From NCBI GenBank assembly GCA_030272585.1, contig BSYQ01000011.1, positions 2,480,001 through 2,544,000 of the forward strand: 64,000 nucleotides of DNA, written 5' to 3'. Position 1 is the stretch's first letter. Every line of letters starts with the position of its first letter. A program made the position numbers and the translations under genes. The notes beneath the pieces were generated by a model that saw only the letters and a program-made list of their open reading frames with translations, did not search any database and was not told the origin of the DNA. The DNA comes from Bryopsis sp. KO-2023 (taxonomy: Eukaryota > Chlorophyta > Ulvophyceae > Bryopsidales > Bryopsidaceae). This document shows positions 3,201-60,555 of the stretch, piece after piece.

Positions 3201-3499
3201 CATTTGTTCGAAAATCAACCCGGGGATTATGCTTAGCCAGCCAAGTTTTTCCCAATATAGCATCATACTTAGCAAGAGACATTTCATGAAAAATCTCCCT
3301 ACTAGCAAAATCTCCAAATCTGAGAGTAGCCCTGATCTTCCCTTTAGATTCTAAGGTACTTCCCCCAGCCAGGCTAACTTTTTCTTCTTGTTCTTCTAAT
3401 TCCAGCTTATTTTTCTCGCAAAATTTCCGAGCTAAAAAGCAATCAGTTGCTCCACAGTCTATTAATATCTCAGCTGCAAAACCTGAGATTTCCCCTTTC
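251..3499 (-). pseudogene. Element A pol region: protease, RT, RNase H, integrase, chromodomain
   Basis: Read on the minus strand. The Asp protease region lies nearest element B. RT follows, with the catalytic YLDD motif in FVIVYLDDILVYSRN. RNase H begins at TTDASDFAIGG. Integrase has its zinc-binding HHCC region (H..H..C..C near CVGCQKNK) and a DDE core (CLDFVGPLP, SDRDTRF, TDGMTERANR). A C-terminal chromodomain ends at LVSWEGYGSEEDQWLP. The chromodomain is typical of chromoviruses, where it steers insertion to chromatin. The copy is a fossil with a small number of breaks. Confidence 0.9.
3495..3499 (+). repeat. Target-site duplication of element B (mate 12809-12813)
   Basis: CTTTC directly precedes the 5' LTR and directly follows the 3' LTR. 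Five bases is the usual length for Ty3/gypsy integrase. Confidence 0.9.
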
Positions 3500-3726
3500 T
3501 GTAGCGCATGTGTGGTACAGACAGCTGCATGTCTGACTTGGTAGTACGGGATAGTACAGGGGTCACCTCAGAGTACGATTGTACTACAGAGGTTACAAGG
3601 AGGGCTCTGTGCTAGGTTCGAACGTTCATTATTCTGTAAGTTATTTTTCCCTTCAAGTGTGCTCGTGTGTGTCTATCGCCCCACCCTCAGTTCGTTACAC
3701 AGCTCATAACCCACGGAGCTGTAACA
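3500..3726 (+). repeat. 5' LTR of element B
   Basis: 227-bp direct repeat of 12582-12808, bounded by TGTAGC and GTAACA. It contains no coding frame. As in the family, it should carry the promoter and the polyadenylation signals. Confidence 0.97.
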
Positions 3727-4110: not shown

Positions 4111-4331
4111 ACACTGAAGAATCAGCAGTGTGCCCAGCGGACTGTGAATAGGCGGACTATCACGTGACCACACATAGCGGAAAACTAACTATTCGTTGAC
4201 AAGGCGGATTGGTCGACACAAGTGTGGGAAGAACGGACTTCAACACTGTGTAGGAAATTGCTAGTCGCCAACTTCTGGTGTGAGAAAGGTTCGGCCTGTA
4301 AACATCCCTGCGAAGTTTTGGCGGACTAACA

Positions 4332-6230: not shown

Positions 6231-9200
6231 CCTCCTCCGATCGGGCTGCCGGAGAGGTAAAACGACCTGGCAGGCGGAAAAATCGCCGACTGAAGCAAGC
6301 CCACAAGAGGGGATCGGCGGCGAGACTGAACCATGCAGTACCACAAGGGGATAAAAGGAAGAAGCGGGTTAGAAGGGGTGTCCGGGGTGGACAAGGAAGA
6401 AAACGTGCAAGTGTGATAAACAAGTTATTAGCGGCTATGGAAGGATTCTCTAGAGGACGTCAAGCGGATTGTTCCAACGTGCATGATACCCCGGGGGTAT
6501 CGCTCAGTAGGCACATTGGCAACCTGAACATGACCGAATCTGGATGTTTTGGCGGAAACCGGCAGGACCAAAGTCCGGTAAGGGGAGGTGGACAACATCC
6601 TACAGTTTGGCAAGAGTGGAGAGGGAAGACGCAAGCCCCCACGAGAGAGAGCGCGAACCCTCCGGCCAACAAAGCAAACCGCTCTGGAATTAAACCTTGG
6701 CGGCGGAGTTTGGCTATTGAGAGCCGAAGTTGTGACACAAAACAACCACTGCGGATGTCATCAAGTAGCACTGGCTGCCAGACACTTCCTCTGGAACAGT
6801 CGGCGCTCTCCGCAGTAGCCCGTCCTACAGGCCAAGTTCGTTCCACCAAACAAACTTCTAGTACTTCTGAACCTGGAAGGAGGACATTGGTTACCTCTAT
6901 TAGCGAAGCTGACGCTATTGGTACCTTGTTCCGGGTCGAAGTAAAAATCGCCAATCACCCGGTGACGGCGCTTATCGACAGTGGCGCATCGGGCGATTTC
7001 ATTGCGGAAGATGTGGTCAAGTTGTTGGACCGCAAGTTGGAGAAGGTGGAATCCCCCACCGAAGTCTCACTAGCGGATGGAACAAAAGTGGAGGTTAAGC
7101 ATCAAGTCCGAACAGTAGTGCGGATTGGCCCCACAACGTCCACCACAACTTTGTACGTGTTACCGAAGACAAGTCATTCAATCATCTTGGGGAAACCATG
7201 GCTAGCAAGAGTCAACCCACAGATAGATTGGAGGGAACACGAAATGCACATCTCTCGGCGGAACCAACCAGATGCTCTTGTAAAGGGTATCCCGCCAGGA
7301 GTGGTGCCGACTATATCTGAGGAGAAACCGTTAAAAGGAGAGTTCATGACCGCTAAAGCAGCAGCTAAAGCGCTCAGACAAAGGAGAAAGCGTTCGTGTC
7401 TTGTTCTCGTGAGACAAGCGCGAAGGAATCCGACAGAAACAGATGGGAAGAGGAAGTTGGAGTTACTGTTAATACATCCTACAACGGGCAAAGTATCAGC
7501 ATTTCCAGAGGCCGACAAACCTTTGGAGGAACCAACCGAACTACCGAAGGAAGTGGATCCACGGTTTGGGGACGCTCTCAAGAAGATACCTGAGAAGGTT
7601 ATCAGAGACGCGTTTAAGAGGAATGCTGACATGTTTCCGGCAGATTTACCTGGAATAGCGCCTTTGCGGCCCAAATACGATATGAGGATCGATTTGGAAC
7701 CAGGGACAAAGCCTGCTTGGCGGCCGTTGTACAAGTACAGTCCCGCAGAGTTGGACGAGATGAAGACCCAAATCGATTTCCTACTCGAGAAGGGGTTTAT
7801 CCGGCCATCGCATTCCCCATACGGAGCACCGATATTGTTCGTGCCCAAGAAGGAGGGAACAATGCGAATGTGCATTGATTACCGCGTTTTGAACCGCCAC
7901 ACGGTCAAAACCAGGTATCCTCTGCCGCGGACGGAGGAATTGTTCGACCGACTTGGGGGAAGTCGTTACTTCACCAAGATCGACTTGCGAACAGGATATT
8001 GGCAGCAGCGTCTAGACCCGGCGGACGTGCACAAGAGCGCGTTCAGAAGCAGATACGGCCACTATGAGTTTTTAGTGGTACCGTTCGGGCTAACGGGAGC
8101 CCCAGGATACTTCATGTCGATGCTCAACGACATCCTGCGGGAGCACCTGGACGACTTCGTCGTTGTTTTCCTCGATGACATCTTGGTATTTTCGCGGACA
8201 GCTAAAGACCATGCCCGTCATGTGGAGGCGGTTCTGGCGAAACTTCGGGAGCAGAAGCTATACTGCAAACTGCCGAAGTGCGAGCTGGCGCGGACAGGAG
8301 TAGAATATCTCGGACATTGGATATCAGCGGCCGGCGTTATGCCTATGGACGACAAGGTAGCGAAGCTTAAGAAGTGGCCACGTCCTACAAACATCACTGA
8401 AGTACGTTCCTTCTTAGGAATGGCGAGCTATTACCGCAAGTTTATCTTCCGGTTTAGTGAAATAGCCGCCCCACTTCATGAATTGACCAAGGCAAACGTG
8501 GTATTCCGCTGGACTGAGGCGTGCCAGAAGGCATTCAAGACATTGCGGACATGTCTCAGTGAGAGTCCGGTCCTACTATTTCCTGACTTACGGAAACCGT
8601 TCACGGTTTTCACGGATTCCAGCAACCATGCTGTAGGAGGTGTGTTATGCCAAGAGGGAGCTGGCGGACAACTGCAACCAATCGCATATGAGAGTCACAA
8701 ACTCATACCCGCTGAGCGGAACTACCCTGTACACGAACAGGAGTTGTTGGCGGTGGTGCATTGTCTCCGCACCTGGCGACACTACCTTGAGGGACGGAAA
8801 TTTGAGCTCCGGACGGATAATGCGAGCCTTTTGTATCTCCGGACACAACCCACGTTAACACGGCGACAAGCACGTTGGGTGGAGCTACTAAGTGCCTTTG
8901 ATTTTGACATTGTGCATATTAAAGGGACCGCCAACATTGTGGCGGACGCATTATCCCGAAGACCTTTACGTGCGGACACGGAAGTGCCTTGCGGCGGCGG
9001 ACAAAAACACCCCCCAGGACGACAAAAGCCTGGGGTGGGATCCCGCAAGACAGATGAAGACTTAAGCGGACAGGCCACTAGACCTGACCGCCCGGGGAAA
9101 GGACAATTGGGGGACTGGGCATCGGACCAGTCGGAGGTAGCTTTTGATGAGCCCCCATTGAAATTTTGGGATCCGTCAGCTGAAGAAGTGGAAGCACTTG

Positions 9201-9592
9201 CTCGACGTGCCCCGGAGTCCAACACGGACGACAAAATTAGTAGGCTGGACGACAAAGTTAGTCAGACACAGGCCGACAAAGTTGATCCGTTGAGGGAGGA
9301 GTCTGGCGATAGGGGAAACAAGACTCAACCGCCACTAGAGCTTTCCGCTCTGGTTGACGCGCGCACCGGTCCCACTGATGACCTCATTGATGCCATAAGA
9401 AACGCACAGAGGTTGGATCCATTGGTGGCGGACATTGTATTGCGGTTAGAAGCGCGAGAAGCGGAAGCGGAAGCTATGTACGTGATGGAGGAAGACGGTT
9501 TACTCAAGAGACGACTATCGGATGAAGAGGAGCTACGCTTGGTGGTACCGCGGGGGAACATCCGCAACAAAATACTGCGGCTCTGTCATGAT
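6206..9592 (+). pseudogene. Element B pol, upstream segment: protease, RT, RNase H
   Basis: After a basic linker the protease motif DSGAS appears near residue 255. RT follows, with RMCIDYRVLN, the LTGAPGYF region and catalytic FLDD (VVVFLDDILVFSRT). RNase H begins at FTDSSNHAVGG. The segment then enters the integrase N-terminal zinc region, where the palindromic DNA element is inserted at 9593. Codons such as GCGGAC are frequent, giving the element a base use unlike the AT-rich surroundings. Confidence 0.92.
9585..9592. repeat. 8-bp target duplication of the palindromic element (mate 10722-10729)
   Basis: GTCATGAT stands on both sides of the inverted termini. Host reading resumes at 10730. 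Confidence 0.88.
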
Positions 9593-10092
9593 CATACTAT
9601 GGACGTGATCGGAAATGATCGGCCGTCCATTTTCGATGTCAGGACAGGTCGTTTCACTGATCTGACCTGACACGATCTCGTTCCACATGATTCTAAAAAT
9701 GATCGGTTTTTTTTGTTTTTTTTTTTACCGATCATGATCGATGATCGTGATCGTGATCGGCCGATTAAAACCTGATCGATGATCGTGGTCGGCCGATCAA
9801 AGCCTGATCGTGATCGGGATCGGGCTTCCGATTATCGATCTGATCGGCAGCTCCGATCACGACCACGATCACGATCAAGCGTCGCGACCTGTCGGCACGT
9901 GATCGGTCGATCAAGATCGGTGAAACGCCGATTGATCGGCCGTTGATCCGATCAGCTCCGACCATGATCGGCCATGGATCAATTGATCGGAATTAAATTT
10001 AAGATTCCGATCATGATCGGTCCCATAATCAATTGATCGGTCAATTGATCGGTTTACGAAAATGCCCACAAGTCACCACCCGAAGGTGTTTC

Positions 10093-10172
10093 TGGAGGTG
10101 TAAGGATTCGAACCTAGGACCTCACTGACTGGAATCAAGCAAATCAACGCTTAGACCACTCTGAGCTACGGT
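10093..10172 (-). repeat. tRNA-derived sequence, left arm
   Basis: On the minus strand it has an A-box TAGCTCAGAGTGG (10168-10156) and a B-box GGTTCGAATCC (10114-10104), and ends in CCTCCA. These are internal RNA polymerase III promoter boxes of a tRNA gene. The 5' acceptor side does not pair with the 3' side, so I call it tRNA-derived, like a SINE head, and not a working tRNA gene. Confidence 0.75.
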
Positions 10173-10256
10173 TAAAGTGTGCTCCGTGTCATTATATACC
10201 TGATCAGTCAGTCCGACAAACTGAGGTATATAATAACACGGAGGACCTAGTGATCG

Positions 10257-10332
10257 TGGCACAGAGTGGTCCAAGCGTTGATTTGCTTGATTCCAGTCAG
10301 TGAGGTCCTAGGTTCGAGTCCTTACACCTCCA
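10257..10332 (+). repeat. tRNA-derived sequence, right arm
   Basis: Inverted mate of the block at 10093-10172. The B-box GGTTCGAGTCC (10311-10321) is kept while the A-box is eroded (GGCACAGAGTGG). It ends in CCTCCA at 10332. The better boxes are in the left copy, so any Pol III activity would be expected there. Confidence 0.72.
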
Positions 10333-10729
10333 GAAACACCTTCGGGTGGTGACTTGTGGGCATTTTCGTAAACCGATCAATTGACCGATCAATTGATTAT
10401 GGGACCGATCATGATCGGAATCAATTGATCATGATACCGATCTGATCGGATAATACGATCCCGATCACGATCTCGATCAAGCGTCGGACCCCGTCGGCAC
10501 CTGATCGGCAGTTTTTGATCGGCCGACCACGATCAGACCGATCAAAAACTGCCGATCAGGTGGGGCGACCGATCTAATCGATGATCGGCCGATCCTGATC
10601 GATGATCGGCCCTGGCAGGTCTGATCGGCGACCGATCAGATCGGTGATCGGCCGATCACGATCATGATCGGTCTCCCGGTTGATCGGAGACCGATCTGAT
10701 CGTGATCGGATCCATAGTATGGTCATGAT

Positions 10730-12001
10730 AGCCCTGCGAGCGGCCACAAGGGCCAAGAAAGAACAAGAGAATTAGTGGGAAGATACTTCTACTGGAAATT
10801 CTGGAAGAAGGAGGTCAACCACTACGTCCGCACGTGTCCCACTTGTCAACGAACTAAGGTGGAGTCACGACGGCCGGCTGGTTTGTTAACACCATTGCCA
10901 GTGCCAGGGCGGAAGTGGGAATCCATCGCGACTGATTTGGTGGTTGCTTTACCTCAAACAGAGCGGGGATTCGATGCCATTGCGGTATTCCTTGACCGCC
11001 TAACCAAAATGATTCATCTTGTTCCCACTACCACACGTGTTACCGCTGAAGGATACGCGCGACTGTTCTTTGAGGGCGTTTGGAAGTACCACGGACTTCC
11101 ACGTTCCATAATCAGTGATCGCGACGTAAGGTTCACGAGTGAGTTTTGGCGAGCACTCTGGGCGATGCTGGGCGGAGAGCTCCGCATGTCGACCGCCTTT
11201 CACCCGCAAACAGATGGAATTACGGAGCGGGATATCCGAACTGTACAAGAAACGCTGAGGGCGTACGTTTCTGAGAGACAAAACGACTGGGATCTTCGGT
11301 TGGCGCAAGTGGAGTATGTCTATAATAATGGCGTTCACTCTGCTACCCGCTATACACCATTTTATCTCAACTATGGGATACATCCGGAGCATCCCGCTGC
11401 ACTTGTGTCTGGCGCACTACAGGCGCGAGCGGAAGGGGTAAGACAGTTCACCCAGCGGATTCAAAGAGACTTAAGAACCGCACAAAACTATCTGGGGGCA
11501 GCAAGAGTAAGAATGAAGCGATTGGCGGACCAGAGCCGACGCGATCAAAACTTTGCTGTGGGAGAACGTGTCCTACTGCGGACGAAGAACATTGAGCTGA
11601 TGCACAGCGGGCCAAGCAAGAAACTACAGGCACGCTATGTAGGTCCGTTCCGCATCCTGGCGAAAGTCGGGGATGTTGCATATCGTCTTGAACTTCCTCG
11701 AGGGTGGCGAATCCACAACGTCTTCCACGTATCATTACTGCGTGAGTTCCATTCCACTCAGCAGTATGGCCGCCGTGAATTGGAAGCTCCACCGGCGGAT
11801 TTGGTGGAAGGAGAAGAAGAATATGAAGTAGAGCGAGTTGTGGACCACCGGGAAAGGAGAAGGGGTCGGCGAACGATCCTGGAGTACTTGGTTAAGTGGC
11901 GAGGATATGGCATGGAGGAGGCACTGTGGTTACCGGACGATGAACTGCAGAACGCACCACTTGCTGTAGCTGAATACCGCGCTGCCGCACGCTTGGGGTA
12001 G
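10730..12001 (+). pseudogene. Element B pol, downstream segment: integrase core and chromodomain
   Basis: Continues on the far side of the palindromic insertion. The CPTCQRTK end of the integrase zinc region is visible, followed by the DDE core (DLVVALPQ, SDRDVRFTSEFW, TDGITERD) and a C-terminal chromodomain (EEYEVERVVDHRE ... LVKWRGYGMEEALWLP). It ends at 12001. Domain order supports a chromovirus-type gypsy element. Confidence 0.92.
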
Positions 12002-13032: not shown

Positions 13033-14037
13033 TTACCTAACATACTCATTTTCGCGAGGGGCAATCTCGAGCGTAATGCCCTCACGCCCACACTTGTAAC
13101 ACTTCACCTCTCCGTCTGCTTTTTCTTTCTTCCAGACTGGCTTATTTCTTTCTCTCTCTTTATCACCTCGCTGTCTCTGCTGTCTCTGTTGTCGCCTTCT
13201 TCCGACGTAGTCCAACTCCATGTGATCTGATCTGCGATTTCCGCCGCCGCTGTTGCCGCCGCCGCCGCGATCTCGATTCAAGATCGAACTCCCGGATTGA
13301 GCTCCTCCCCACCTTTCCGCCACTCGAATAGCTTCATCCAAGGTCTTGGGGTTTTGGAGGTCGGTCTCGATGCCAACCCTCCCTCGCAAACCATCGACGA
13401 ACCTGTGTATTTTCTCGCCCTCTGATGCGTCGGAAATATACAGCATCAGCTGTCTAAAACGATGCGTGTATTCCCGCACAGACATTCCGCCTTGGCGTAA
13501 ATTCGCCCATTCTGTCCGTGTGCGGCGCAAAAAATGTGGTTCCCCGAACTGGTTTTTCAGCTCCTCACAGAAGTCCTCATACGTCGGCAAAGGTCGGCCT
13601 CCATCAGTCTCCGACTCCTCCACTCTTGTTCTCCACCATGTCGCGGCTGGCCCTCTCAGTAGAGATCCTGCCAGGCGGAGTTTCGAGACTCCATCTTCGA
13701 CGTGGGTGGCGTCAAAATGCACTCGGAGGCTGAACAACCAATCCTGGATAGGAGGGTCATTCTGCCTGCCTCCCCACAGATCAGGTCGGGCTGGCTTACT
13801 TCTCAGGTCATTACCTCGACCACCACTTCCAGCCGCCGTTCCAGCCTGTGCTGCAGTTGCCGCCCCGATTGCTGTTCCCACCTTGTCGGTTAGTTGCTCC
13901 AAAATGGAGCTTCCCACAGCCTCATTCACCGCCGTGCTCAGCATTCCCGGTACTTCTTCGACCACGCCTTGCACTCGGTTCAACCTTCCCATTACCTCCT
14001 CATACGCCGCCCTCAACTCAGCCACCTGTTGCTCCAT
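13033..14037 (-). pseudogene. Element A gag
   Basis: Gag of the minus-strand gypsy element. It opens with a short coiled-coil-like stretch, followed by a retrotransposon Gag core (motif WWRTRVEE; a region with EFTHRFRQL-type character written here as EYTHRFRQLMLY). The C-terminus is basic with the start of a CCHC knuckle (CYKCGREG). The core packs element RNA in the family. It belongs to a fossil element that is interrupted downstream. Confidence 0.8.
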
Positions 14038-14044
14038 CTCAGAC

Positions 14045-14404
14045 TCAAAAATCCTCGGTTAGGGTATTCCGCGGATAGGTAAATTCGGATACCCTAACTT
14101 TCTTCGACTGCCTTTTCCGATCAAGGAGCTCCACTGACTCTCCTTCCTGATTTACGAGGGTGTCTGGAACCCTCTTCCTCTCTGGATCTCCGGTGCACGT
14201 CCTCACGATCTGCCGCTCCTCTTGGGTCAGCTGCAGAAACTTGTCGCCAAACAACCCCAGAGGTCTGATAGTTGGGATTTCCTGCCCCTCTGAGTTCACG
14301 ACTGGTTCTTGCTCGTGCCCCCGTACGTTATGTACTCCCGGCTGCGCTAGTGTCCACTTGACTTGGTAGGTGTCGTTTAGTTGGTGGATCCTCTCCTCTT
14401 TCAT
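14045..14404 (-). CDS. Element A accessory frame 3 (119 aa)
   Basis: Third short frame of element A, 119 residues, charged. It starts inside the stop of frame 2 (ATGA overlap) and ends 7 bases before the gag start codon at 14037. Its end carries a basic patch (RKRQSKKVR), perhaps nucleic-acid binding; this is inference. No domain is recognised. Confidence 0.5.
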   Translation of the reverse strand: MKEERIHQLNDTYQVKWTLAQPGVHNVRGHEQEPVVNSEGQEIPTIRPLGLFGDKFLQLTQEERQIVRTCTGDPERKRVPDTLVNQEGESVELLDRKRQSKKVRVSEFTYPRNTLTEDF

Positions 14405-39711: not shown

Positions 39712-42700
39712 CTAAACACTGCTGCCCTTCATGGAAGAAGACCGTAATTGTTTAAGCTCTGAGCCTTGTCTGTCCAGCAGTGATTTTAGTCGAGTTATCT
39801 CTCGAGTTTCAAAGGACCTCGATGCAGTGTTGGTCACCTGAGGGACAGACAACAGAAAAAAGAAAAGAAATATAACCCAAAAAAAAATAAAAAATGATTC
39901 TAACTTTTTCTTAAAAACAGAAGCACAAACAGCTCTCTGCATTTCACTTTCTTCTTTCTCCACCGATATAATAACTCTTTCTCAAAACTCCAAACTCTTT
40001 CATTTTTTTTTTTAAACAAAACCTTTTCGCGGCAAAAAAAAAATAAATTCTTTTCCCGTATTCTCCGGTAAGCCGTTCGCGACCGACAAACAACAAAAAC
40101 AGAACGAAAAAATCGGGGATGTTTTTTCTTTTCTTGCACTCATTTCATTTTCATTGATGATTTTGATTTTCTTTTTTTGTGGGGGGGGAGGGGGGGGCGC
40201 TTGGGACGACTACCCACATTCCTTGCACCTCTTCTTATCCCCCTCACCTGTTTCACTCTGGAGGCATACTCCAGGCTGTTTCTGGACTCCGAGATGTCAG
40301 ACCCCAATGGAGAGACATTCACGATCATGAGGGTTTTGGCATTTCCCCCCAACGAATCCCTCATGAGCTCCGTGAGCTTGTGATTTCGATAAGGGATGAA
40401 AGACTCTCCAGAGGTCAGAGCCGCCACAACGTCCCCCAGCGCCGACAGACTCTTGTTTATTGCTTTCGCCTCTGCGCAAAAAAAAAAAAAAAAATCCAAC
40501 GGCAACAATTCACTAAAAAGAAGGGGAAGAACATACATATATTATGCATCGGGTAAATTACAAACCGAGAGAGAGAGAGGAAAAAAAAAAAAACAAATGA
40601 AAAAAACAAAATAAACAAATCGAAAATGAAAAATAACGCAATGCGTTTGACCTCTGGAGGAAAAAGAATAAGAAGAAGAAGAAGAAACGAAACGAAACGA
40701 AAACCCCCACCGTTTAGTAGGACTTTATCCTCCATGGCCCCAGATCGCATCACTCTTTCCGACCCCGCCAGGTCTACAAAAGTTATTTTGCTTCTGGAAC
40801 GAGCCCCTGTCGTCATGTTATGTCGTTCCAAGAGCATTGTGAAAATAAGGTGCGATCGGGAGGATTGTATGTTCAGCATCGTCGCCGCCGTTTTTCGTTT
40901 CCTGGAAATTCCAAAAATAGCAGATCAAAAGAGGCGGGGGGGGGGGGGGGCACATGCATCTGTTTGATACAAAAACTCGACCGCCGAAGCAATATGTGGA
41001 AACCCAGGTCAGGTGTTTGAAAAAAACAAACAATAAAGGACACTCGAAAATGTTGACTAACCTCAGACCGGCTTGGAACACTTTCATCAGTTCTCCAGAC
41101 GATTTTGCTGCACATATCCTTGCTCCTTCCACCCGAACTATTCCGGTGGATGGGTCTGTCTTGATTCTCAATCTAGGATGGTTTTCTGGCCCCAACAGAT
41201 CCAGCAGCGAATCCTGCGAGAATACAGGAAACACAGCACGTCACTGAAAAATGGAAGAAAAAAAAAAAGGATATTCAACAGTCTCCATGAGTATCCAATC
41301 CCTGATCAAGTAAAAAACGAAAAGACCACATATCAAGGAACTATGCATTTTCTATATCAGTATGGGGGAAGCTTCTGGAAGTAACCAAACGGGGGAAGCT
41401 TCTGGAAGTAACCAAACGAGGACACATTTAACCCTTAAAATAGATTTCCCGAAAACATATCGAAAAAAGATAAAGAGTGATGGGGGGGGGGGGGGGGGGG
41501 AGAATAAAAGTGTGAGGATATTCAAATGACACACACTCACTTGGTACAATTCAAGCATGTATGCAGAAACACTGCAGGTTTCGGCTTCGCTGTTAGTCAG
41601 AAACACATCCTGCATTGCTCGGGGTATGATGCCTGGATTATCCTTATCACCTAGAACACCATATCAACCCATTCACTTTCACCGGGGAAAAAAAAAGAAA
41701 GAAAGAAAATACTTCAATCCAAGGTGTGAAAAAGTGTGAGAGCTCTGTCCATATCACTGTTTCAAAAATATTCACCTACCCGAAACCATCCCACAAAAAC
41801 TTGCCATTATCAAATCAAAATACCCCCCCCCCTGCCCCCCCCTCCTGCCCCCCCCCTCCCCCCCCCCGGTTCGACCCGTAACAAAGGAAAACATAAAAAA
41901 ACGAAGAGAAACGAAACGAAAACATACAGACCGGTCATTGTGTAGGTTTTTCCAGATCCCGTCTGTCCATAGCAAAATATGCAGACGTTGTATCCATCGA
42001 ATGCCGATCGTATCAAATCTGCCGTTTCCATGTAGACGTCCTCTTGGCAGCACTCCGGTCCGAAGCAGGCATCGAATTCGAATTTTTTCAGAGCGAATTC
42101 GGTAGACTCGGAGCCGATTTGATTTTTGTTTTCAAGCTGCATGGTCAGAGTGTATTCGTCTCGAGCCTTTTATGTATACCAAAACAAAACACAAAAAAAA
42201 CAAGAAAAAAGGAGTAAAAACATGTACAAGAATTGGAAAGAAAGAAGAAGGAAAAAAAATGAGGAGGGAAAATCTACAAATATATCAATGAATGGATGAA
42301 TAAATATAACTGGAGGAATGAATTCGGTTGTTGGCATTAATACTTCATAAATTTTTGTTGTTTACACAACTCTAATTACAGTTCTAAATATCCAAGGATA
42401 TCTGATGTATACCTACACATGTATTCTCACACTTTTCTTCTCAGCATCAATACTATATCACTTAATAATTATTATTTTTTTAATTTTGGAGGGATTTTGG
42501 ACAGGCTTTAGGGAAAACAGGAGCAGGGAAAAATTCTCGAACGCAGGTGAAACAGGTCCGTTTATGATAAAAATTAGTTCCAGCGGATGCTGGGGATTAG
42601 GGAGGACGTTTGGCAGGGGACTACTGAAAGATTTAAAATTATCCTTTTTTTTGGCCAAGGGTTGGGTTGGGTTTTTTTTAAGCGCACAATTTCGGCCCTC

Positions 42701-45700
42701 TTTATTTCACATTTCATTTATTCTGCACTGGGATTTGTAGGGAAATAAAAGGAAAAAAAAATACTTGGTAAAAAATCATGCAAAAAAAAAACGAAAATAG
42801 TGTAGAACATTTCCGGTTACATATGCTCCTGCTTTTCACAAATTCAACATCTTTTTACTTTTTTTCGTTTCTTGTCTTTTGAGCAAAAAGGAAAAAAAAA
42901 ATCCGAATCAAAACTTTTTTTTTTTTTTTACTGTTATCCTTTTTTTCCTTCCTCCTTAAAACCACCAGAGCACCACTGGAAAACCCCATTGAACTTTTCA
43001 CACACACTTCCTTTTCCTCCTTTTCCCCCCTCCACCTTTCCCCCACCCCAATCCCCTGACCTCCTCTTTTTTTTCCCTTGAATATTGCTCCTTGTTGCTT
43101 TTTTTTTTCTTTTTTCGTAAGCATATTTCATAAATTTTTTTAAAAGCTTTTGGATGTCAAGCACATATTTCGTGATTGTTTTGGAGCGATCGAATTTCAT
43201 TGGACAAAAAAAAAGAAGAAAAAACGGAACTTTTTCTTTTATTCTTATTTTCTCCCATTTTCAAGTTGAGCAAATGAGACACAAGCAAATTTCCTTTCTC
43301 TTTTTTTTATTTAATTTTTGTCCATCTCAAAAATGATTAACTACTCACCCACAAACTCTTTTTTTTTTTTTTTTTTTGAGGGGGGGGGGGGTATTGGAGT
43401 GGGAGAGAGGGTTTGTGAGTCCAGGAGGGTGGGAAGATAATTTCAAACCAAACACAGATAAACTGTCATCTAGCTATTTTCATATATCCGAAAAAAAATT
43501 AAAGAAAAAAATCGCAAGTGGATCACTGAAATTAAAGAAAAAAATTAATGTATTAACTGGGAAAGAAAAAACGGGTTGCTTTTTAAATATATACATGTAT
43601 ATATTTACCTCTCCCTCGAAAAGTCTTGTTTGGATCATTTCTAATAAATTTATATGCGTTTCTCCCTCTCATTTTTTTCCCTATCTTTGTTCACTTTGAC
43701 GTTTGATCCTACATGATTTTTTTTTTTTATATTCGTTTCAAGCATCACCTTATGGATGCTAAAAAATTATAATTAGTCATGTAGGTATCTATCCGTAAAT
43801 GCCTATTTTTTCCCCTAACATATATAGCGCCTAAATCAACATTAAAAAAAAAAAAGCATCGAATCTGCTGGATTTTTTTTTCCATATGTGCATCTATTTC
43901 CTTTCTTTTCTTTCTCATGCAACTTCTTTTTTTTTTTTTTTTAATTCTTTCGAATCCTGCTTTCCAAACCTACCCATTACCACATTACATAAACATACGT
44001 ATATCTTTCAGAGGGAGAAAATAAAATAAAAATACCAACACATGCAATGAATTGTTTTCTTTTGTTTCTCTTTCTGTGTTTTCCTTTCTCATTTTTTCTT
44101 TCTTTCTTTCTTTCTTTCCTTTTTTTTTTTTTTTTTTTATAACTATTGTTTTTTTTTCTTAATTATTTTTTTCTTGGTTGACCACGAGCCCTACGCGCTT
44201 TTTGTCTCACCACTAGGGGGTATTCCTCTGCTTCGCCGTTTTTCGCCCTTCCTGGGACAAAGGCTGGCCTCACTCTAGTCAACACGCGAATGTTACCCTT
44301 CATTTCCCGGATCTGGTTGTAAGCCTTCTTTCGCAAAATGCTTTCCCTCTTTAATTCCAACTTCAAGCTGCCCATGGCTTTCTCAGCATCTTCTGCCCGT
44401 TGTTTGAACGCCACTACCTGATACGAAGATTCCAACAAAAAAAAAAAAAAAAAAGTTAAACTTCAATTAAACAATAAATTAATGAATCGAAAAATTAATT
44501 TTAATTTTTTTCTCCAAACATTTTTGCACCGCAAAAATATGAGCCTCCATACATACAGAAATATATTTGGAGGAAAAGAGAGAAAAAAAAAAACGCTCCT
44601 CCCCCCAAAAATAAATGAATAAATAATTCTGCTTACTTCATTTGAATTTGCTCGGAGCATTTGTAACTCGTTCGACATTTTCTCAACGTCGGCCTTGTGC
44701 TGGGCTGTTCTGGCGGTGGCTTCAGCTTGCATCGACTCGATGTCTCCATCTTTATAAGCGATTTGAACTTCCAGTTCAACCACCTTGCCAAAAAAAAGGA
44801 AAAAAAAAAACAAAAGATATTCCAAAAATGTCGTCCATCACCATATCTGCAAGAAGAGCAACGCTGTGCCAAAGAAAAGAAAAAAAATGTGTGGTGCAGT
44901 GCCGGCAGAAGCCGTCAAGGGAAAAAAAAAATGCAGATGCAACCAGACAAGGAGAAAAAAAAAGTGATTGCTTTTCACTCACAGAAAACAAAAAAAAACG
45001 TTAATATGCTGATTTCTGAAAACACAGTACCAAAAAAAACCCAAGAAAGCAGAGCAGCATGAGATTCGGAAAGAGGTCGAACAAGCAACCTATCCATCAG
45101 AGATGTGTTTTTTTTGTTGTTTTTCTTTTTCAATGAGATGGATTGATGGATCCATTGCATCCAGAGTTCACCGTACGTATACAAATCTAAGACCTGATTG
45201 CGAAGCTGTTTGATGTCAGCTTCCAGCGCCGCTTCTCGTTGGGAGGCCCTGTGCAGCTCAGCATCCAACTCCGTCTGAAGCTGCATTACTTGCGCTATGA
45301 TTCGATCCAAGCACACCCAAAGTAAACACCCCTCCCATCAACACACACCACGGAACGATACCTCCAAAAGGTGTTTTCGAAAAATAAAATGCACTACTGT
45401 TACGGGTGGGCAGCTGTTTGCCTCAACGGTATCCACTGAAAAATCCGCTTGAGGGGAAAAAGGATGAAAAAAAAAGTTTTCATTTTATGACTGGTTTTTT
45501 AATTTCCCGCAGGAACCGCATATCAGGTTCTTTTTTTTCTCGCTGTTTTTTTTTTTTTTTTTTTTTTTTTGTGATACCTTCCAATTTCCGTGTGTTTTCG
45601 TCGGTGACCATGGAAGATGCTCTGGCTAACGACAGCCTTGCAGAATCCAGCCTCCCTGCAGCTTCCTCCCTTTCCCTCACCAGCTTCAGGTTAGATTCCT

Positions 45701-48700
45701 GAAGCTCGCCGATCTGAAATAATAACAACAGGCCAAAGCACACTCGATTAAAAAAAAAAAGGGGGGGGGGAAATTGAGGAAAAGAAACGACATATATATT
45801 GTGATATATCAAAGGCCAAAGCCCCCGCCACGCACATATTGACACCCATTTCTGCACAGTGGATGGGGCTACCAGCCTCAATGTAAAACTATTAAAAATG
45901 AAAAAAAAAATCCCAGCCAAACACACACACACATGTTATGTTATTCTCGTCCACAACAGACATTTTGTGAAATCACAAAATGTTGGATCAGTCAGTTGAG
46001 CTTTCCCCCCCCCCCCCCCTGCACAGCTTAAATATATGATTAATGATCGACCACCTGCATCATGAGCTCTTTGATCTTCCGTACGGCCTTCCCTTTCACT
46101 TCTTTCAACTGCTTTTGAAACTGAGCCTCCGCTTGAGCCAAAGCAGCCTCTCTTGCAGCAGTCGCCTCAGCAACATCCCTTTTCAACATATCATTTTGCT
46201 CTCGAAGCTGACTAACCTGTTCAACAGCGAACAAAAATCAATCCCACTCTTCCAACCCGTTTTTTTTGTTTTTTTTTCGGGGGCAAAAAAATGAAAACCT
46301 AGTACACAATCATATCAAAGACTTTTAAGTTTTTATGAGTGTGTGGGTGTGGGTGGGTGTGTGGGTGGGTAGGGGTGTGTCATAATGAAAGCAGATAACC
46401 GAGCAAGTCAGACTACGCTCCGTCCACTGTGCAAATGACTGACATGGACTCTCGTAACGACAGCTTTCTTTTTTTTTTAAATCGAAACTGTTTTCGGAAG
46501 AGAGGATAATCAGTGGTGGTGGAGGCAGGGTTAATTTCTTTTTTTTGCGTGCGAAAATGAAAGGGCCTACAAGCTTAGCGTGCGCTGCTTCGCTTTCGCC
46601 TCCTTCGAGATCGGTGGTTTCCGAGTCGGTAAGCTGCATCCCACCAAAACAAAAAAAAGCACGCTCGGGAGTTTCAGACTGTCATACCACCACATTAGCT
46701 CTAATTATAGATTATTATTTTTTTCCCCCGGGGAAGAAAATTACTACAGAGGTGCCGGAGTGTGGATGGTGGTTCTTTTCAACCCTCGATGTTTAAAAAT
46801 CGGCCTGATAGTAGCAACAGATTTTTCTCGTTTCTGCGAGGATGGGGGAATTTACTCAGCTGGATCCTATTTTCACATTTACTGTCATCAACAAATGAAC
46901 CTCCATGCGTAGAAGCAATTCTAAATAATATATATATATATACAGTGGACGGGCTGCACATGGGGCTTTAAGCCTCAAGTAGTATACGTACGTATATCTA
47001 TCTTAAACCTTTTCCTTTCAGATCTATTACAAGTTTTCATTCAGATCCATCATAAGTGGTTCTTACATCTAATTTTTCGTAGTTTTTTTTTAAATCTTTT
47101 TTTCGGAAGCTGTTCTATTTTCAGATCTATTTTTAGAGCAGAGTGCTGTGCACCTGTCGTTCTCCGAAGTCGGACAATGTATTGGTCGAAATTTTTCGCT
47201 GAATGTTCAATCTGCCAAGTTCGCTCAGTACGTTTTCGTCATCCTCTTCATCCTCGTCATGCTGAGACCCCTCGTAGCACCCGATATTGGCAATGTCCAG
47301 CGACACCAAAGCCTGCCATCTGTTTTTTTTTTTTTTTTTTAAATTGGTATTATCAATATGTACAAAAAAAACGTCGGAAAGGTTGACAAAAAAAAAGAAA
47401 AATCGATGTTGTGATTAATCGATGTTGCAATAAGACGAGAGAAGAAAAACAAAACATATCAGGATGGTGCAATGAAAATTGGGAAAAAAAAAAACAGCAT
47501 CCACTTTTTTTTTCTCGATAAGAAAGCAAAAATCTGCATGAAAGAAAAAGCACTGTGTGTGTGTGTTTTTTTGTGTCTTTTTTTGGTGGTAGAAATAGGT
47601 GGGTGAGGTGCAAAAAGCATGCAAAATTTCGGTCAACAGCAATTCTGGGATGCACCTTTCCAGTCCGGAATTGAGCCTGTCATTAGCCTTCAGAAGGTGG
47701 CCCAAATCCTCTTCGTTCATTTCTCGCATCAGCAACGACTGAACGCAACACTCACAAATGAAAAATAATGGAGCCCCCCCCCAAAAAAAAACAAAGCAGC
47801 CATCGGAAATTAAAAAAATAGCCATAGGAAAGCAACAAATCCACAAAGATTGTGTAAAAAAGAAGAAAGAAAACAGCCTTGATCACAGTTTCTTCGATGA
47901 TATCCACCCACCCATGTTCGAATCTTGCTGTTGGCCAAAAATACATTTCTGATCTCCCCAGAAAAATCCACCCCATATCAACTACTCCACTGTTCGCATC
48001 GCCAGGTGGATAGACATAGGCATTGATATATTTCAAATATAGAAGAAAAAAAAAGGCCAGAACAATTTAAAAAAAAAGCATGTTAAAACTACCTGCATGT
48101 TTTCCGACCAAACATTGCATTTCTCCGCAGCCACCCAAGCCATATTGAGATGATCCAAAACCTCTTTTCTGGCAACTTTTCCAGATTTCAGTGCTTGTGC
48201 TGAGTCCGTGCATCTTTGAATGGCATCCACCAACTTGGCAACGTCCAGCTTGATTCTCTGGACCTAAAATTTTCCAAAAAAAAAGGGATGAAAAGAGAAT
48301 AAAAGAAAGAGATTTATTTATTTTTATTTTTTTGAAAAATCTATCAAAAAGAGAAAGGGTCCAAGATTTAAATTAAAAAAAAAAAAAAAAAACTGAAAAA
48401 TATCATCGATCAAATTGGAAAGTCGTGGCATACCTTGAAATAGGGCGAAAAGAAATAAGAGTGCTGTTGACGGATTGAAAAAAAAAGGAGGGGGGGGAAT
48501 GGGGGAATTATTCATTCATTCTCATTTCCATTCTTTTTGGTTTTTTTCCTCTTGCCCCATTGGCCTCATTGTGAAAGAACTCAATTCGTTCGACACACCC
48601 ACACCAAAACTCAAAATCGAAAAGGAGGTTAGGGGCAAGGGAACGTTCAATCTTCAGTCCGTTCATATCAAGAAGCGTAAAACTAACCAACCATCAAATC

Positions 48701-51521
48701 GCTGAAACCCAAAAACGCCCGCGATAAAAGTAAAGCCTCCTTATCGTCTGTCTGTGTCAATGGGAAAACTTTTCCATGTCAATGCTCTATTCTAACCGCC
48801 ATTTCTTTTCTTTTTTTTTCTTTTCTTCAATCGATGAACTCAAGGAAACCAATCAATCACCAAGTGTTTACGTCACGTTAATTTCCCTCTCTCTTTCCCC
48901 CCCCCCTCCCCCTTTCAAAAAAGAACCTTTTTTTTTTTTCTCTTCCTGTTCTGCTTCCTTTCGTTCGGTCATATCTGCTAATGAGGTATTCTCTCTCTTT
49001 TTTCTTTCTTTTTTCTTTTTTTTTTTGGGGGGGGGGGGGGGGAGGGGAATAAGAGGAGAAGAGCAAAGAAAAAAAAAAAAGAGAAAAAAAGGAAAACACT
49101 CACCGTCATGGGCGTCATCTCTTCGGACCTTCTGTTTCTGTTGTGGCTGCCCCCTGGCGAGCCTCCCCTCGTGGAAGTCCTTGGAACTTGAGCCGCCGCC
49201 ACCGGCATGTGTAAAAAATCCAAACCTCGTTCGAAACCCCCTCCTCCCACACCTCCGTTGCTCCCGGCAGTCGGCCCAGAGGTGGTGGCGGGGGCTGCTG
49301 GGGAGCCCCCCTCTGATGAATGTGAATTTGTATCGCCATTTTGCCGTGGTGAAGCCTCCCGACTGGACGCCAGGCTTCCGGAAGCTGTGGGGGCGAGTTG
49401 AGAGGGGATGTGGATGTTTTGGTCTTCCAGTTCGCGAATTACATGTTGATATGCTTCGCCGAGTTCCGATCCGCTGAACATCGGAAAATCAGAAAAAAAT
49501 AAAAATAAAAAAAGGCAAGGGGAAAAATCCAAAGGCGATGTAAAACCCATATTTATTTACCCATTTTACAACACGGCCTATTTGAAGCTTTTTCGTCCTT
49601 GAAAAACATGAACATGAGCATCATGAAAAAAAAAAGGGAAAAGCTGTGCTGCCTTTTATTACTGATTCAGCAAGTTGTTTGCGACCACTTCCAAATTTAT
49701 ATAATTTCTATTTTTACTTTTATTTTGTTTTTTCCGGTTTTTTTAAATTATTCCCCAACAGGAAGGGGAAGGCAAGAATGAAGACGGCATAAATTTTTTA
49801 CCTGTATTTATGAGCCCAGTTCGAGAATAAGTGAACCACCGCATTTTTGACTTTTGAATCCTGGGATGATAGGAGACTTGCCAATCGAGTCGTCCATTTT
49901 CGACTTGCTAGGCGATTATGAAGTTCCGGCCCACAATTCACGGCTAAAGAATCAATTATCTGGGGGGGGAGGGAAAAACCAATAAGTTGATAAAAACGGA
50001 GCAAACAAATTAAAAAAAAAAACACTTGTCAGAATAAACCAGATCAAAAGTCATGTGTGAAAAGGTGGATCAGTAAATTATTAAAGAAAAGAAAGGAAAA
50101 AAAAAAAACCTTTGAAAAACAGGAGAAAGAACTGCAGCAACTTCCGGAAGCAAAAAAGCAAGCAAATAAAATATAAGATCAAAAAAAATTCGATTGATAC
50201 TTAAAAATGCATGTATGAAATACGTATTCTCATCTCACTGTGAGGGCCTTGAGGACAACTGCAGGCATATTGTTTTTGATGTATGTTTTTAGGTAAGAAA
50301 GGCCGTCGTCCGGTGAAATCGCATGTCTGACAATCAAGGCGGACATCTCCTGAACGCCATCCCAATTTATCTCGCCGGGTCTGCATGAACACATTTCAAG
50401 CTTTCAAGGGAAAAAAAAGGAGCAAAAAAAAAAAAAAAGGTTGTTTTTTCCCCAACCTGATTTAAAACTATTTATTTAAAAAAACAGGGAAACAAAAGAA
50501 AAAGAATCACAGGAGACCTCAGCTTTCGCATAGACGACACCAATCCCGTGTTTTATCTTTGGATCCCAATATGGTATCCAATTTTTAATAATCTGATTTG
50601 TCGATGTTGCTATTATTTTATTAGTCTTTTAATTTAATTTAATTTTTTTTTTTGGGGGGGGGCATATCCACACTGAAAAAAAAGAACATAATTTCAAGCA
50701 TGCCAATCACCTTTCAATGGCTGCCTCCAGAGCTTGTGAGTAAGCAGCCCTCCCAGTCTAAAGAAAAGAAGGGAAAAAAAGAGTCGACAAAAAAATTATT
50801 TCCAGGTTTCAGTTCCTACAAGCATCTGTTTGACAAAATCACTGCATGTGTTTTTTTATTCATTTATTTTTTTGGGGGGGGGCTGTGCATACGATGTACA
50901 ATTTTATGGGCAGCCAAACAATATATTTGAGGCAACCTTTCATATAAATCAGCCCAGCAGTTCTTTTTATTCTGGTGGTTTTCAGGCAACTTCACTTAAG
51001 CTTTTCGAACATCTAAAAAAAAAAATGCCCTGCCGTGACAGAGCCCCGAAGCAGGCCGTATAGTTCGCGTCTATTTCTCGCGATTTCTCGCGACCCTTTT
51101 CCCTTCCCTGACATCGACGACTACTAAAACCAAAGACGTCGCTCCAACAAAATAGCGCTGTGCTGTGCGGAGAAACAACCCCTTTTAAAAACGATTCCCT
51201 GCTCGGACTCGACGCTAAAAAAGACGACTTTCACTGTTTTTTTCAAGCGAAGTACAGAACATGACGCGGGGGGATTTGGGAGAGACGACGCCTGGTCGAA
51301 GAAACCAAGATGTCCCCCCCCCCTCCGCGCGAAACTCCAGATTCCGGGATACAACGCGCGAAATGAAGCTCCAAAAGTGTTTCAACCAGGGGACTCTTGT
51401 ATATCATGGCCGCTTGCGAATCATAAAGGTTATACCATGCTTCTTGTCGTGTATTTTGGTCCTTCGAACTCACCCATCCCGCCGATTCCTCAAGCGTCGT
51501 TGAACCTCGTTTGCTTCCCAT
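39712..51521 (-). CDS. VHS-GAT domain kinesin-14 with C-terminal motor
   Basis: Twenty exons join in phase: 51521-51474, 50757-50711, 50380-50239, 49959-49802, 49473-49104, 48263-48093, 47738-47656, 47319-47154, 46633-46571, 46216-46055, 45713-45578, 45294-45194, 44783-44637, 44417-44211, 42166-41932, 41650-41541, 41213-41062, 40901-40711, 40471-40248, 39837-39712; 1,012 residues. Residues about 10-131 look like a VHS domain ([40 protein letters not shown]). A Gly/Ser-rich linker follows. Residues about 256-350 resemble a GAT domain ([19 protein letters not shown]). A coiled coil runs to about 635. The neck [11 protein letters not shown] and motor come next: P-loop GQTGSGKT (about 734-741), [15 protein letters not shown] and [10 protein letters not shown]. 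Neck-before-motor order marks kinesin-14, usually minus-end directed. VHS and GAT bind ubiquitin or Arf in TOM1/GGA adaptors, so cargo linkage is inferred. Confidence 0.85.
41364..41417. repeat. 27-bp tandem duplication in a kinesin intron
   Basis: Two exact copies of a 27-bp unit (GGGGGAAGCTTCTGGAAGTA and seven more bases) stand head to tail between exons 16 and 17. Confidence 0.9.
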
Positions 51522-52575
51522 TGTTTTTTTGAGATAGTTCATCCTCCAGTGGACAACAAACGGGGGCGATGCGAAAGCGAATTGCCCCTCCCACAAAAGC
51601 TTGCCCCCCCCTCCCCTTCTCCTCCGAGAAAAAAACGAAACCCTTACACCCGACCAGTTTACGGGGTGAAATAAAAAGCGAAAAAAAAAACCAAAAAAGA
51701 AACAACAGGGTAGCCACGGAAGGATGTCTTTCGTTGTTTTTTTCTCTATTTTTTTTTTTTGCCCCCTCCCTCTTTTCCCTGTCTTTCGTTTTCCTAGGTA
51801 AAACGCACGGAAAGCCCCCCAGGGACCCAATAACCCATTTGGGAATGTGGAGCGCTCAAAAAGGAAAAAAAAAAGATAAGTCCCTTCCGTGAACCACGAA
51901 AGAAAATTCACGATACAGATTTTTGAGGTCGAAAACGGGTGGTGGTGCGCGATGGGAAAAAAAAAACGCAAAAAAAATCCAAGGGCAACATTTGATTTGA
52001 GGAGTAACGTCGACAAGGTTACGAAAGATTTGAGAGGGGCTGTCATCATGAAAACGTGACTAATCCACCAGATCAAGCGAATTTCTGGTGAAAAACAGTG
52101 AAGTGCTGCAGGATGGAAATACACTGCACAACAGAAGGAAAAAAAAAACTAAGTCGAACGGCTGGAAGATCGATGTGTGCGGGAAACGGCTAAGACTTCC
52201 AGAAATTTTTGCTTGGGATTCCGGCCGCAAAAAATGTATATGGCCGCTTTCCTCAGCCATCTTTCTCCCACACCGTATTATTTATGGTTGATTGATTTCA
52301 CGATTGAACAGAAAACACACAAAAAGATATTACAAAAAGAGCAACCTAACGAACAAACCGACAACTACGGAAAAAAAAGTCAACATTCGTCGATTTCCCC
52401 CTCAATCCTTTCCTCCTCCTCCCCCCCCCCCCAAAAAAAAAAAAAAATGTGGATTTGCTCCTGATCAGCTCTTGATTCCTTCCTTTCCCTTGCTTTGGAA
52501 GGACTTTTAAACTTGCAGAGTGCCTCACGAAAGGAAAGAGGCTTTTTGCAAAAAACAGTCGTTCATTTTTCTCCA
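51522..52575. promoter_or_regulatory. Divergent intergenic region, kinesin / TPR gene
   Basis: About 1 kb between the start codons of the minus-strand kinesin (51521) and the plus-strand TPR gene (52576). It must hold both promoters. Only homopolymer tracts stand out, including a C-run followed by an A-run at about 52424-52447. The upstream in-frame ATG at 52495 is an alternative start for the TPR gene. Confidence 0.45.
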
Positions 52576-59502: not shown

Positions 59503-59730
59503 GATTTCATGCAAAGAGCGTAAAAACGGAATTCGCTGATCGTTTCTGAAAAGCAAAAAACGAAGATGCGGGTGCCACCCTCAAACCACCGCCATGCACC
59601 ATTACACTCACGCGTAACGCTGCACGTTTTCACGAATAGATCGGTGAGATTTTGCCATTCTCTTTCCTCAAAAACAAAATCAACAAATCCTCCCTGCAGC
59701 CACACAAACGAGAATCGCTCCGAAATACGT
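59503..59730. promoter_or_regulatory. Short shared promoter, TrpRS / DUF71 gene
   Basis: Only 228 bases separate the divergent start codons at 59502 (minus) and 59731 (plus), or 63 bases if the plus gene starts at 59566. A bidirectional promoter is the simplest reading. No TATA box is evident. Confidence 0.55.
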
Positions 59731-60555
59731 ATGGACGAGAAAAAGCGACGCCTTCCCCCCACCATTCCACATGAGAATTTACCCCCCTCCCCGGAAAAAT
59801 TCCGAGCCGCGGCGGTGTCGTGGACGGGGGGTAAGGATTCAGCTCTGGCCATGCATTTAGCGCAGTCTCAAAATTTCGATGTAAGGGCCTTGGTGACGTT
59901 CGTGCCAGCGCCAGAAAACGGAATCAGAAAGGAATTCAAAGCGCATCCAGTGCCCATGATGAAATTGCAAAGTCAGGCACTGGGCATTCAGCACCTGGAG
60001 GTAACAATCCTTCCTCAAAATGGGGACTACAAGGCTGCTTATGTAGAAGGATTGAATCAAGTGAGGGGGGGAAGCCTGGGGTGCGGCACCGTGGTTTCGG
60101 GGGATATCGATTTTGTGGGGACGATGCGAGATAACTGGCTGAGGATGTGTGCCTTGGGGTGTGAAAACGAACTGAGGATTTTGACTCCGATCTGGCACTG
60201 GGAAAGAATCAAAGTGCTGAACAAGTTGATTGAAGATGGCTTTCTGGTGATTTTTTCGTGCGTGAAGGAGCCCTGGTTTGGGAAGGAATGGTTGGGCAGG
60301 GTTCTGGATGATAAAGCTGTGGTGGATTTGATGGAAATCGAGGGGAGATGCATGGGGTTTGATCTGGCTGGGGAAAATGGGGAATATCACACCATGACGC
60401 TGGATGGACCAGGGTTCAGCCAAAGGGTGATCATCGAGAGCAGTTCGAAGGAAATCGTACCGAGGTCGGAAAGGGGGGTTGCTGTCGATGATAAGGATGT
60501 GTATGATTGGTGGTTTTTAAAAATAGAAAAATGTAGATTGGAGGCCAAGGCTTGA
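59731..60555 (+). CDS. DUF71/DPH6-type ATP pyrophosphatase (diphthine-ammonia ligase-like), intronless
   Basis: Single exon of 274 residues. The PP-loop motif WTGGKDSALA (residues about 34-43) binds ATP, and GENGEYHTMTLDGP near residue 217 is the second family signature. DPH6 uses ATP and ammonia to amidate diphthine on elongation factor 2. However, the sequence around the middle (GTVVSGDIDFVGTMRDNW, LTPIWHW) and the ENGEYHT form look closer to bacterial DUF71 proteins, whose substrates differ. I therefore do not assign a gene symbol. The frame is open upstream to an ATG at 59566, and the added 55 residues are basic and could be a targeting peptide. No intron, unlike every other recognised host gene here. 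Confidence 0.8.
   Translation: MDEKKRRLPPTIPHENLPPSPEKFRAAAVSWTGGKDSALAMHLAQSQNFDVRALVTFVPAPENGIRKEFKAHPVPMMKLQSQALGIQHLEVTILPQNGDYKAAYVEGLNQVRGGSLGCGTVVSGDIDFVGTMRDNWLRMCALGCENELRILTPIWHWERIKVLNKLIEDGFLVIFSCVKEPWFGKEWLGRVLDDKAVVDLMEIEGRCMGFDLAGENGEYHTMTLDGPGFSQRVIIESSSKEIVPRSERGVAVDDKDVYDWWFLKIEKCRLEAKA

Follow-up and report, generated by a model that had tools for sequence, protein, structure and literature searches.

We describe a predicted gene of the green alga Bryopsis sp. KO-2023 whose exons, read as one chain, encode an N-terminal VHS domain, a GAT-like region, a coiled coil and a C-terminal kinesin-14 motor closest to that of plant KCBP. The gene lies on the minus strand of the window, a stretch of 64,000 nucleotides covering positions 2,480,001 to 2,544,000 of contig BSYQ01000011.1 (assembly GCA_030272585.1). 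We propose with moderate confidence that its product would be a homodimeric kinesin-14 serving as adaptor and retrograde motor from one gene, recruited to endosomal or trans-Golgi network membrane by its VHS-GAT head.

Gene model and domain order

The minus-strand chain from 51542 to 39712, rebuilt from the sequence, joins 20 exons across 19 introns, all of them GT...AG, into a phase-consistent frame without internal stop that runs from the ATG at 51542 to the stop at 39712 and predicts a protein of 1,017 amino acids. It agrees with an earlier note on this DNA, which had read 20 phase-consistent exons as a single protein and had named the junctions 49802/49473 and 44211/42166, both present in our chain. 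The former falls within the VHS match (residues 41-154); the latter lies within the motor region, where the join is crossed by the Pfam Microtub_bd match (residues 626-794, E 1.5e-37) and also by the alignment with KCBP, which is weak close to it. The start given in that note, 51521, is in frame, but it corresponds to M8 of the chain opening at ATG 51542, and because the frame is open further upstream of this ATG as well, the position of the actual start is uncertain. Introns measure 160-2,044 nucleotides with a median of 336, and their GC content is 36% versus 50% in the exons. The intron at 44210-42167, in the motor region, has 2,044 nucleotides, six times the median of the gene. Introns 8 (47153-46634) and 9 (46570-46217) are, with 520 and 354 nucleotides, comparable to the others; for the predicted join between the GAT exons (to 46571) and the coiled-coil exons (from 46216), the grounds are reading frame, spacing and published precedent. 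The features of the gene, all on the minus strand, are as follows.

51474..51542, minus strand: exon 1, residues 1-23, with the start at ATG 51542 or at M8 (51521)
49404..50757, minus strand: VHS domain, residues ~24-162, on exons 2-5 (50711-50757, 50239-50380, 49802-49959 and the 5' part of 49104-49473); PF00790, PDB matches HRS 3zyq and STAM1 3ldz
49116..49403, minus strand: Gly/Ser-rich linker, residues 163-258, with 18% Gly and 17% Ser
47304..49115, minus strand: GAT-like region, residues 259-352, on exons 5 (3' end), 6, 7 and 8 (start); PF03127 match at residues 308-352
46571..47303, minus strand: acidic spacer, residues 353-423, on exons 8-9, net charge -14
44319..46216, minus strand: predicted coiled coil, residues 424-636, on exons 10-14, from heptad hydrophobicity and lack of proline
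39835..44318, minus strand: kinesin-14 neck and motor, residues 637-977, on exons 14-20; Pfam Kinesin, PDB match KCBP
41945..41968, minus strand: P-loop motif GQTGSGKT, residues 739-746
39712..39834, minus strand: C-terminal tail, residues 978-1017, and stop; its first half can be aligned with the post-motor helix of KCBP

Coiled coil and motor

Residues 424-636 contain no proline in 213 residues, and their heptad hydrophobicity, by a simple measure, is 0.72 versus a shuffle mean of 0.62, a value reached by 0 of 300 shuffles. The Pfam Kinesin profile, whose use the earlier note had proposed as a check, matches residues 676-977 with an E-value of 1.3e-99, and the motor motifs are intact: GQTGSGKT at residue 739 and SSRSH at residue 851, both claimed before, and DLAGSER at residue 881. 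Against PDB sequences the motor scored 313 and 305 bits with KCBP and 240 with KIFC3, followed by Kar3 (at most 207), OSM-3 (206), KIF3B (205) and kinesin-1 (at most 199); therefore KCBP and KIFC3 stand out, and Kar3 scores no better than some N-motor kinesins. Identity to the two KCBP entries, 1sdm and 3h4s, is 50% and 49% over 337 and 345 aligned residues, and the 1sdm alignment extends past the motor to the post-motor helix of KCBP, running through a stretch of 11 residues. We built a query-anchored tree from 17 motors: the query, 5 of 23 PDB sequences and 11 loci of the same genome chosen from 156 exon-level kinesin matches. In it the Bryopsis motor is placed next to the KCBPs (local support 0.72); these form a group without it (0.94), and the motor and the KCBPs are grouped with KIFC3 and CaKar3 (0.87), apart from OSM-3. 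In addition, the alignment contains a neck/motor stretch, KGNIRV, common to the query, KIFC3 and CaKar3; we take the junction KGNIRV..RVRP to be a kinesin-14 motif. By its sequence the motor is thus a kinesin-14, closest to plant KCBP, and the class proposed in the earlier note stands on the C-terminal position of the motor after a coiled coil, on KCBP and KIFC3 as best matches and on the grouping with kinesin-14s in the tree. In the Pfam scan of the protein neither MyTH4 nor FERM was matched; the MyTH4 and FERM_M matches of the genome sit at other loci.

The VHS-GAT head

The VHS domain (PF00790, residues 41-154) passes the Pfam cut-off in the scan of the whole protein, with 51.5 bits versus 29.8 and an E-value of 1.2e-13, and gives 4.7e-15 when the segment is scanned alone. 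Its best PDB matches are HRS (3zyq, 1.9e-9) and STAM1 (3ldz, 1.4e-6), and the overlapping matches to RIX1 (8.5e-5), HEAT_Maestro_2 (7.3e-4) and Adaptin_N (0.053) are weak and below cut-off. W45 aligns with a Trp of STAM1 and is kept. The Trp and the Leu of this STAM1 patch are presumably ubiquitin contacts. As a candidate mark of kinesin-borne VHS domains we tried the five membrane-contact positions in helix 7 of TbKIFC1, the VHS kinesin of Trypanosoma brucei, which read V, V, F, W, Y here; HRS is similar with V, I, I, W, F, therefore the pattern is general to VHS domains and proves nothing.

The match to GAT (PF03127, residues 308-352) covers positions 30-75 of the 77 in the profile, i.e. its later part, and is overlapped by weak sub-cut-off matches to Exo70_N (0.0032) and Bestrophin_2 (0.21). 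Since the segment is placed after a VHS domain, GAT is the natural reading and the probable identity of the region formed by residues 259-352, which we name GAT-like because the match is below cut-off. No GAE, FYVE, UIM or SH3 domain was among the Pfam matches of the protein. Hence, of the head described in the earlier note, the VHS domain was recovered above cut-off by the profile search, the GAT domain has a profile match in the expected place but misses the Pfam cut-off of 31, and with this qualification the order of VHS, Gly/Ser linker, GAT-like region, coiled coil, neck and motor was borne out.

Known VHS kinesins

The earlier note knew of no described protein of this order, which does not hold, as TbKIFC1 (UniProt Q388B7) has an N-terminal VHS domain and a C-terminal kinesin motor (PMC4560804, PMC7479354, here as elsewhere by the accessible parts of the sources cited). 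A VHS kinesin with C-terminal motor is therefore not new. The TbKIFC1 domain is composed of eight helices (PMC7479354, PMC4560804), and the recombinant domain binds phosphatidylinositol and phosphatidylserine, better with cholesterol present, but not cholesterol alone (PMC7479354). A mutant of helix 7 lacks transport activity, and endosomal-traffic proteins are lost from its proximity proteome; this 2020 study connected the domain with endosomal membrane traffic (PMC7479354); motor and VHS domain are both required (PMC4560804). Furthermore, the legend of Fig. 11 in a 2006 survey of kinesins from 19 species lists VHS among their domains (PMC1434745), and a green alga may be among the species with VHS kinesins. 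The main text of PMC2867816, as accessible, does not mention VHS; the 105 domain architectures of kinesins in that work are given in additional files. Among the papers listed in our literature searches on VHS and kinesin, we saw none stating VHS with GAT on a kinesin and none reporting a green-algal VHS kinesin. The GAT-like domain and the KCBP-like motor look new, and perhaps also the green-algal host. A pattern scan of viral contigs gave 3 pattern matches and 0 relatives.

Proposed function and alternatives

Kinesin-14 motors with this neck are minus-end directed, and the KCBP-like motor would, by its family, walk to microtubule minus ends, probably as a dimer held by the coiled coil. By homology, the VHS-GAT head would recruit it to endosomal or trans-Golgi membranes through anionic lipids and/or ubiquitinated cargo, for which TOM1-type proteins and, in the case of lipids, the TbKIFC1 VHS domain may serve as models. 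Bryopsis is coenocytic, and in such a cell a one-piece adaptor and retrograde motor would serve long-range microtubule transport. A role of the head as a selector of membrane cargo is plausible, with an experimental precedent in TbKIFC1, the VHS domain of which couples such a motor to membranes.

Several points weigh against this proposal. The GAT match reaches 21.2 bits (E 3.3e-4) in the whole protein and 24.4 bits (E 3.4e-5) when the segment is scanned alone, both under the cut-off, and a phmmer search of the segment against the PDB returned no GAT, only two irrelevant matches with E-values of 0.66 and 1.4. Four residues after W45 a Gln replaces the Leu of STAM1, which argues against a simple ubiquitin reader, and the net charge of the VHS domain is -1, therefore lipid binding is not obvious. 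With regard to the motor, the N-motor kinesins OSM-3 and KIF3B match it as well as Kar3 does by bit score, and the tree is small and its support modest. The status of VHS-GAT and motor as one protein rests on a predicted exon chain. Moreover, a 2015 study did not find TbKIFC1 itself in the endocytic compartment, and knockdown of this kinesin left receptor-mediated endocytosis and fluid uptake unchanged (PMC4560804).

The dependence on predicted exons allows for a false chain across introns 8 and 9 that links two adjacent genes, one TOM1-like with VHS-GAT and one for a kinesin-14; retention of intron 8 would bring a stop shortly after exon 8 (the open reading frame ends at 47133), and exon 10 contains an in-frame Met. 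However, each of the 19 introns has GT-AG ends and keeps the phase, the lengths of introns 8 and 9 leave little room for a 3' end and a promoter, and the rough chance that a given VHS locus lies no more than 12 kb upstream of a kinesin, with both on one strand, is ~0.002-0.003, assuming 30-45 kinesins. Because of these short introns, this low chance and the identical order published for TbKIFC1, we consider two genes very improbable. The weak points of the head are relevant in another way, as the VHS-GAT part could have decayed into a structural spacer, or into a domain that simply binds lipids, with the reading of ubiquitin and Arf lost. The sub-cut-off GAT match and the Gln at the second STAM1 patch residue are consistent with such a loss, as is the finding that the TbKIFC1 VHS domain operates through lipids (PMC7479354), but the VHS domain is well scored, with the NCG core and the helix-7 W..Y/F pattern, and the GAT match retains the C-terminal helices, which makes degeneration quite unlikely.

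Of greater weight, although still on the unlikely side, is a head that tethers another organelle (chloroplast, nucleus, vacuole or an acidocalcisome-like store) or the cytoskeleton, with minus-end movement or crosslinking kept. Chloroplast movement in Bryopsis is microtubule-based, which counts for an organelle tether. The tails of plant kinesin-14s bind microtubules through a MyTH4/talin-like region or F-actin through a CH domain (PMC1434745), and TbKIFC1, unseen in the endocytic compartment (PMC4560804), was originally linked to acidocalcisomes. On the other hand, the VHS and GAT domains of TOM1 work in endosomal sorting (PMC7952518), and the later study places the TbKIFC1 domain in endosomal membrane traffic (PMC7479354).

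Relatives in the genome and neighbours in the window

The genome searched comprises 91.09 Mb in 28 contigs; Ochiai and others (Plant J, 2024) reportedly described a Bryopsis genome of ~90.7 Mb on 27 contigs with over 30 kinesins and a single myosin, along with chloroplast movement that depends on microtubules. Our six-frame search reads exons separately, therefore VHS genes split by introns may be missed; of the VHS-kinesin gene it picked up one exon, below cut-off. It found one other VHS gene (L009, C15:564457-565353), a TOM1/TOL-like single exon in which both VHS and GAT exceed the cut-off, and to which the head has its best local match with 33% identity over 36 VHS residues (E 0.002). A second GAT-like match at C3:4481712 (L048 3439-3978, plus strand; C3:4481439) has 27 bits, below cut-off, and the 10-kb stretch examined showed no VHS next to it; an NPF-containing sequence lies ~900-1,200 bases downstream of this segment on the same strand. 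Three loci combine MyTH4 and FERM_M, each followed downstream on its strand by kinesin matches (C10:1638057, C10:3095507 and C9:5401169), hence MyTH4-FERM kinesins coexist with their VHS-bearing relative. At the first of them (C10:1632801-1639483, plus strand) the motor is strongly diverged, with ~36% identity over 154 aligned residues. In the tree, the locus L036 (C10:282501-292500, motor exons from ~C10:289281 to 290990) is a near-identical copy of the KCBP motor at C9:5401k; its alignment has an in-frame stop in one high-scoring segment pair, and it may be a decayed duplicate.

A genome search for the dynein light intermediate chain gave 0 matches, but 14 of 14 controls were also silent, so that absence is not shown. 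For dynamitin 16 matches were obtained, all below cut-off, 13 of them on the same query span (78-187) with 24.5-25.5 bits, and we read them as a repeat. The genome has 107 exon-level matches to light-harvesting complex (LHC) proteins, and a 119-residue Lhcb fragment is identical at 118 of 119 residues to Bry-Lhcb1 of the PDB, a siphonaxanthin chlorophyll a/b LHCII, in line with a Bryopsis as the source. Elsewhere in the window, long frames at 251-3567 (minus strand), 4302-12001 (plus strand) and 13033-14058 (minus strand) were read by eye as Ty3/gypsy-like long terminal repeat retrotransposons with gag, protease, reverse transcriptase, RNase H and integrase, and an open frame at 59527-60552 (plus strand) carries a diphthamide synthase domain (Pfam Diphthami_syn_2, 5.3e-28).

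Wider implications

If the proposed function is true, a very large single cell would have its adaptor and its minus-end motor in one molecule, and therefore the choice of cargo and its retrograde transport could be studied without a separate adaptor. The protein would be a candidate membrane mover of such a cell, a variation on an idea known from trypanosomes. Together with TbKIFC1 it would place VHS kinesins in two very distant eukaryotic lineages, thus an ancient origin could be tested by a phylogeny of motor plus VHS. Moreover, a neighbour of the KCBPs with a wholly different tail would be useful for understanding how the tails of kinesin-14s are exchanged. More speculatively, and in our view rather doubtful, VHS(-GAT) kinesin-14s might be an ancient class that survives in trypanosomes and bryopsidalean algae but has been lost, or has gone unnoticed, in other lineages, with the KCBPs as a sister line in which VHS-GAT was swapped for MyTH4-FERM; where cytoplasmic dynein-1 is lacking, such a protein could be a self-contained retrograde motor reading ubiquitin or phosphoinositide marks on membranes.

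Comparison with known systems

With the GGA and ESCRT-0 proteins the Bryopsis protein shares the VHS domain, for which HRS and STAM1 of ESCRT-0 are the best PDB matches; it differs in that its Pfam matches include neither the GAE of GGA nor the FYVE, SH3 and UIM of HRS/STAM. TOM1 and the plant TOL adaptors, represented in this genome by the gene at C15:564457, have VHS followed by GAT at the N terminus, an order that the Bryopsis protein probably shares, its VHS match being above and its GAT match below cut-off; they are without coiled coil and motor. In TOM1, VHS and GAT both bind ubiquitin, and in Dictyostelium TOM1 both bind phosphoinositides (PMC7952518). TbKIFC1 has the combination of an N-terminal VHS domain and a C-terminal motor in one protein, which here follows from the predicted exon chain, and its published model is membrane transport; here TbKIFC1 is likened by its published description. 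In contrast to the Bryopsis protein, no GAT is described for TbKIFC1 (0 mentions in the accessible text of PMC7479354), and its host is an excavate parasite and not a green alga. KCBP, a kinesin-14 of plants and green algae to which MyTH4/FERM kinesins are confined among the surveyed species (PMC1434745), is the closest in the sequence of motor and post-motor helix (1sdm, 3h4s), and the 40-residue Bryopsis tail, aligning in its first half with that helix, may correspond to the calmodulin-binding C-terminal helix of KCBP. Nevertheless, the KCBPs carry MyTH4-FERM, whereas the Bryopsis protein carries a predicted VHS-GAT head.

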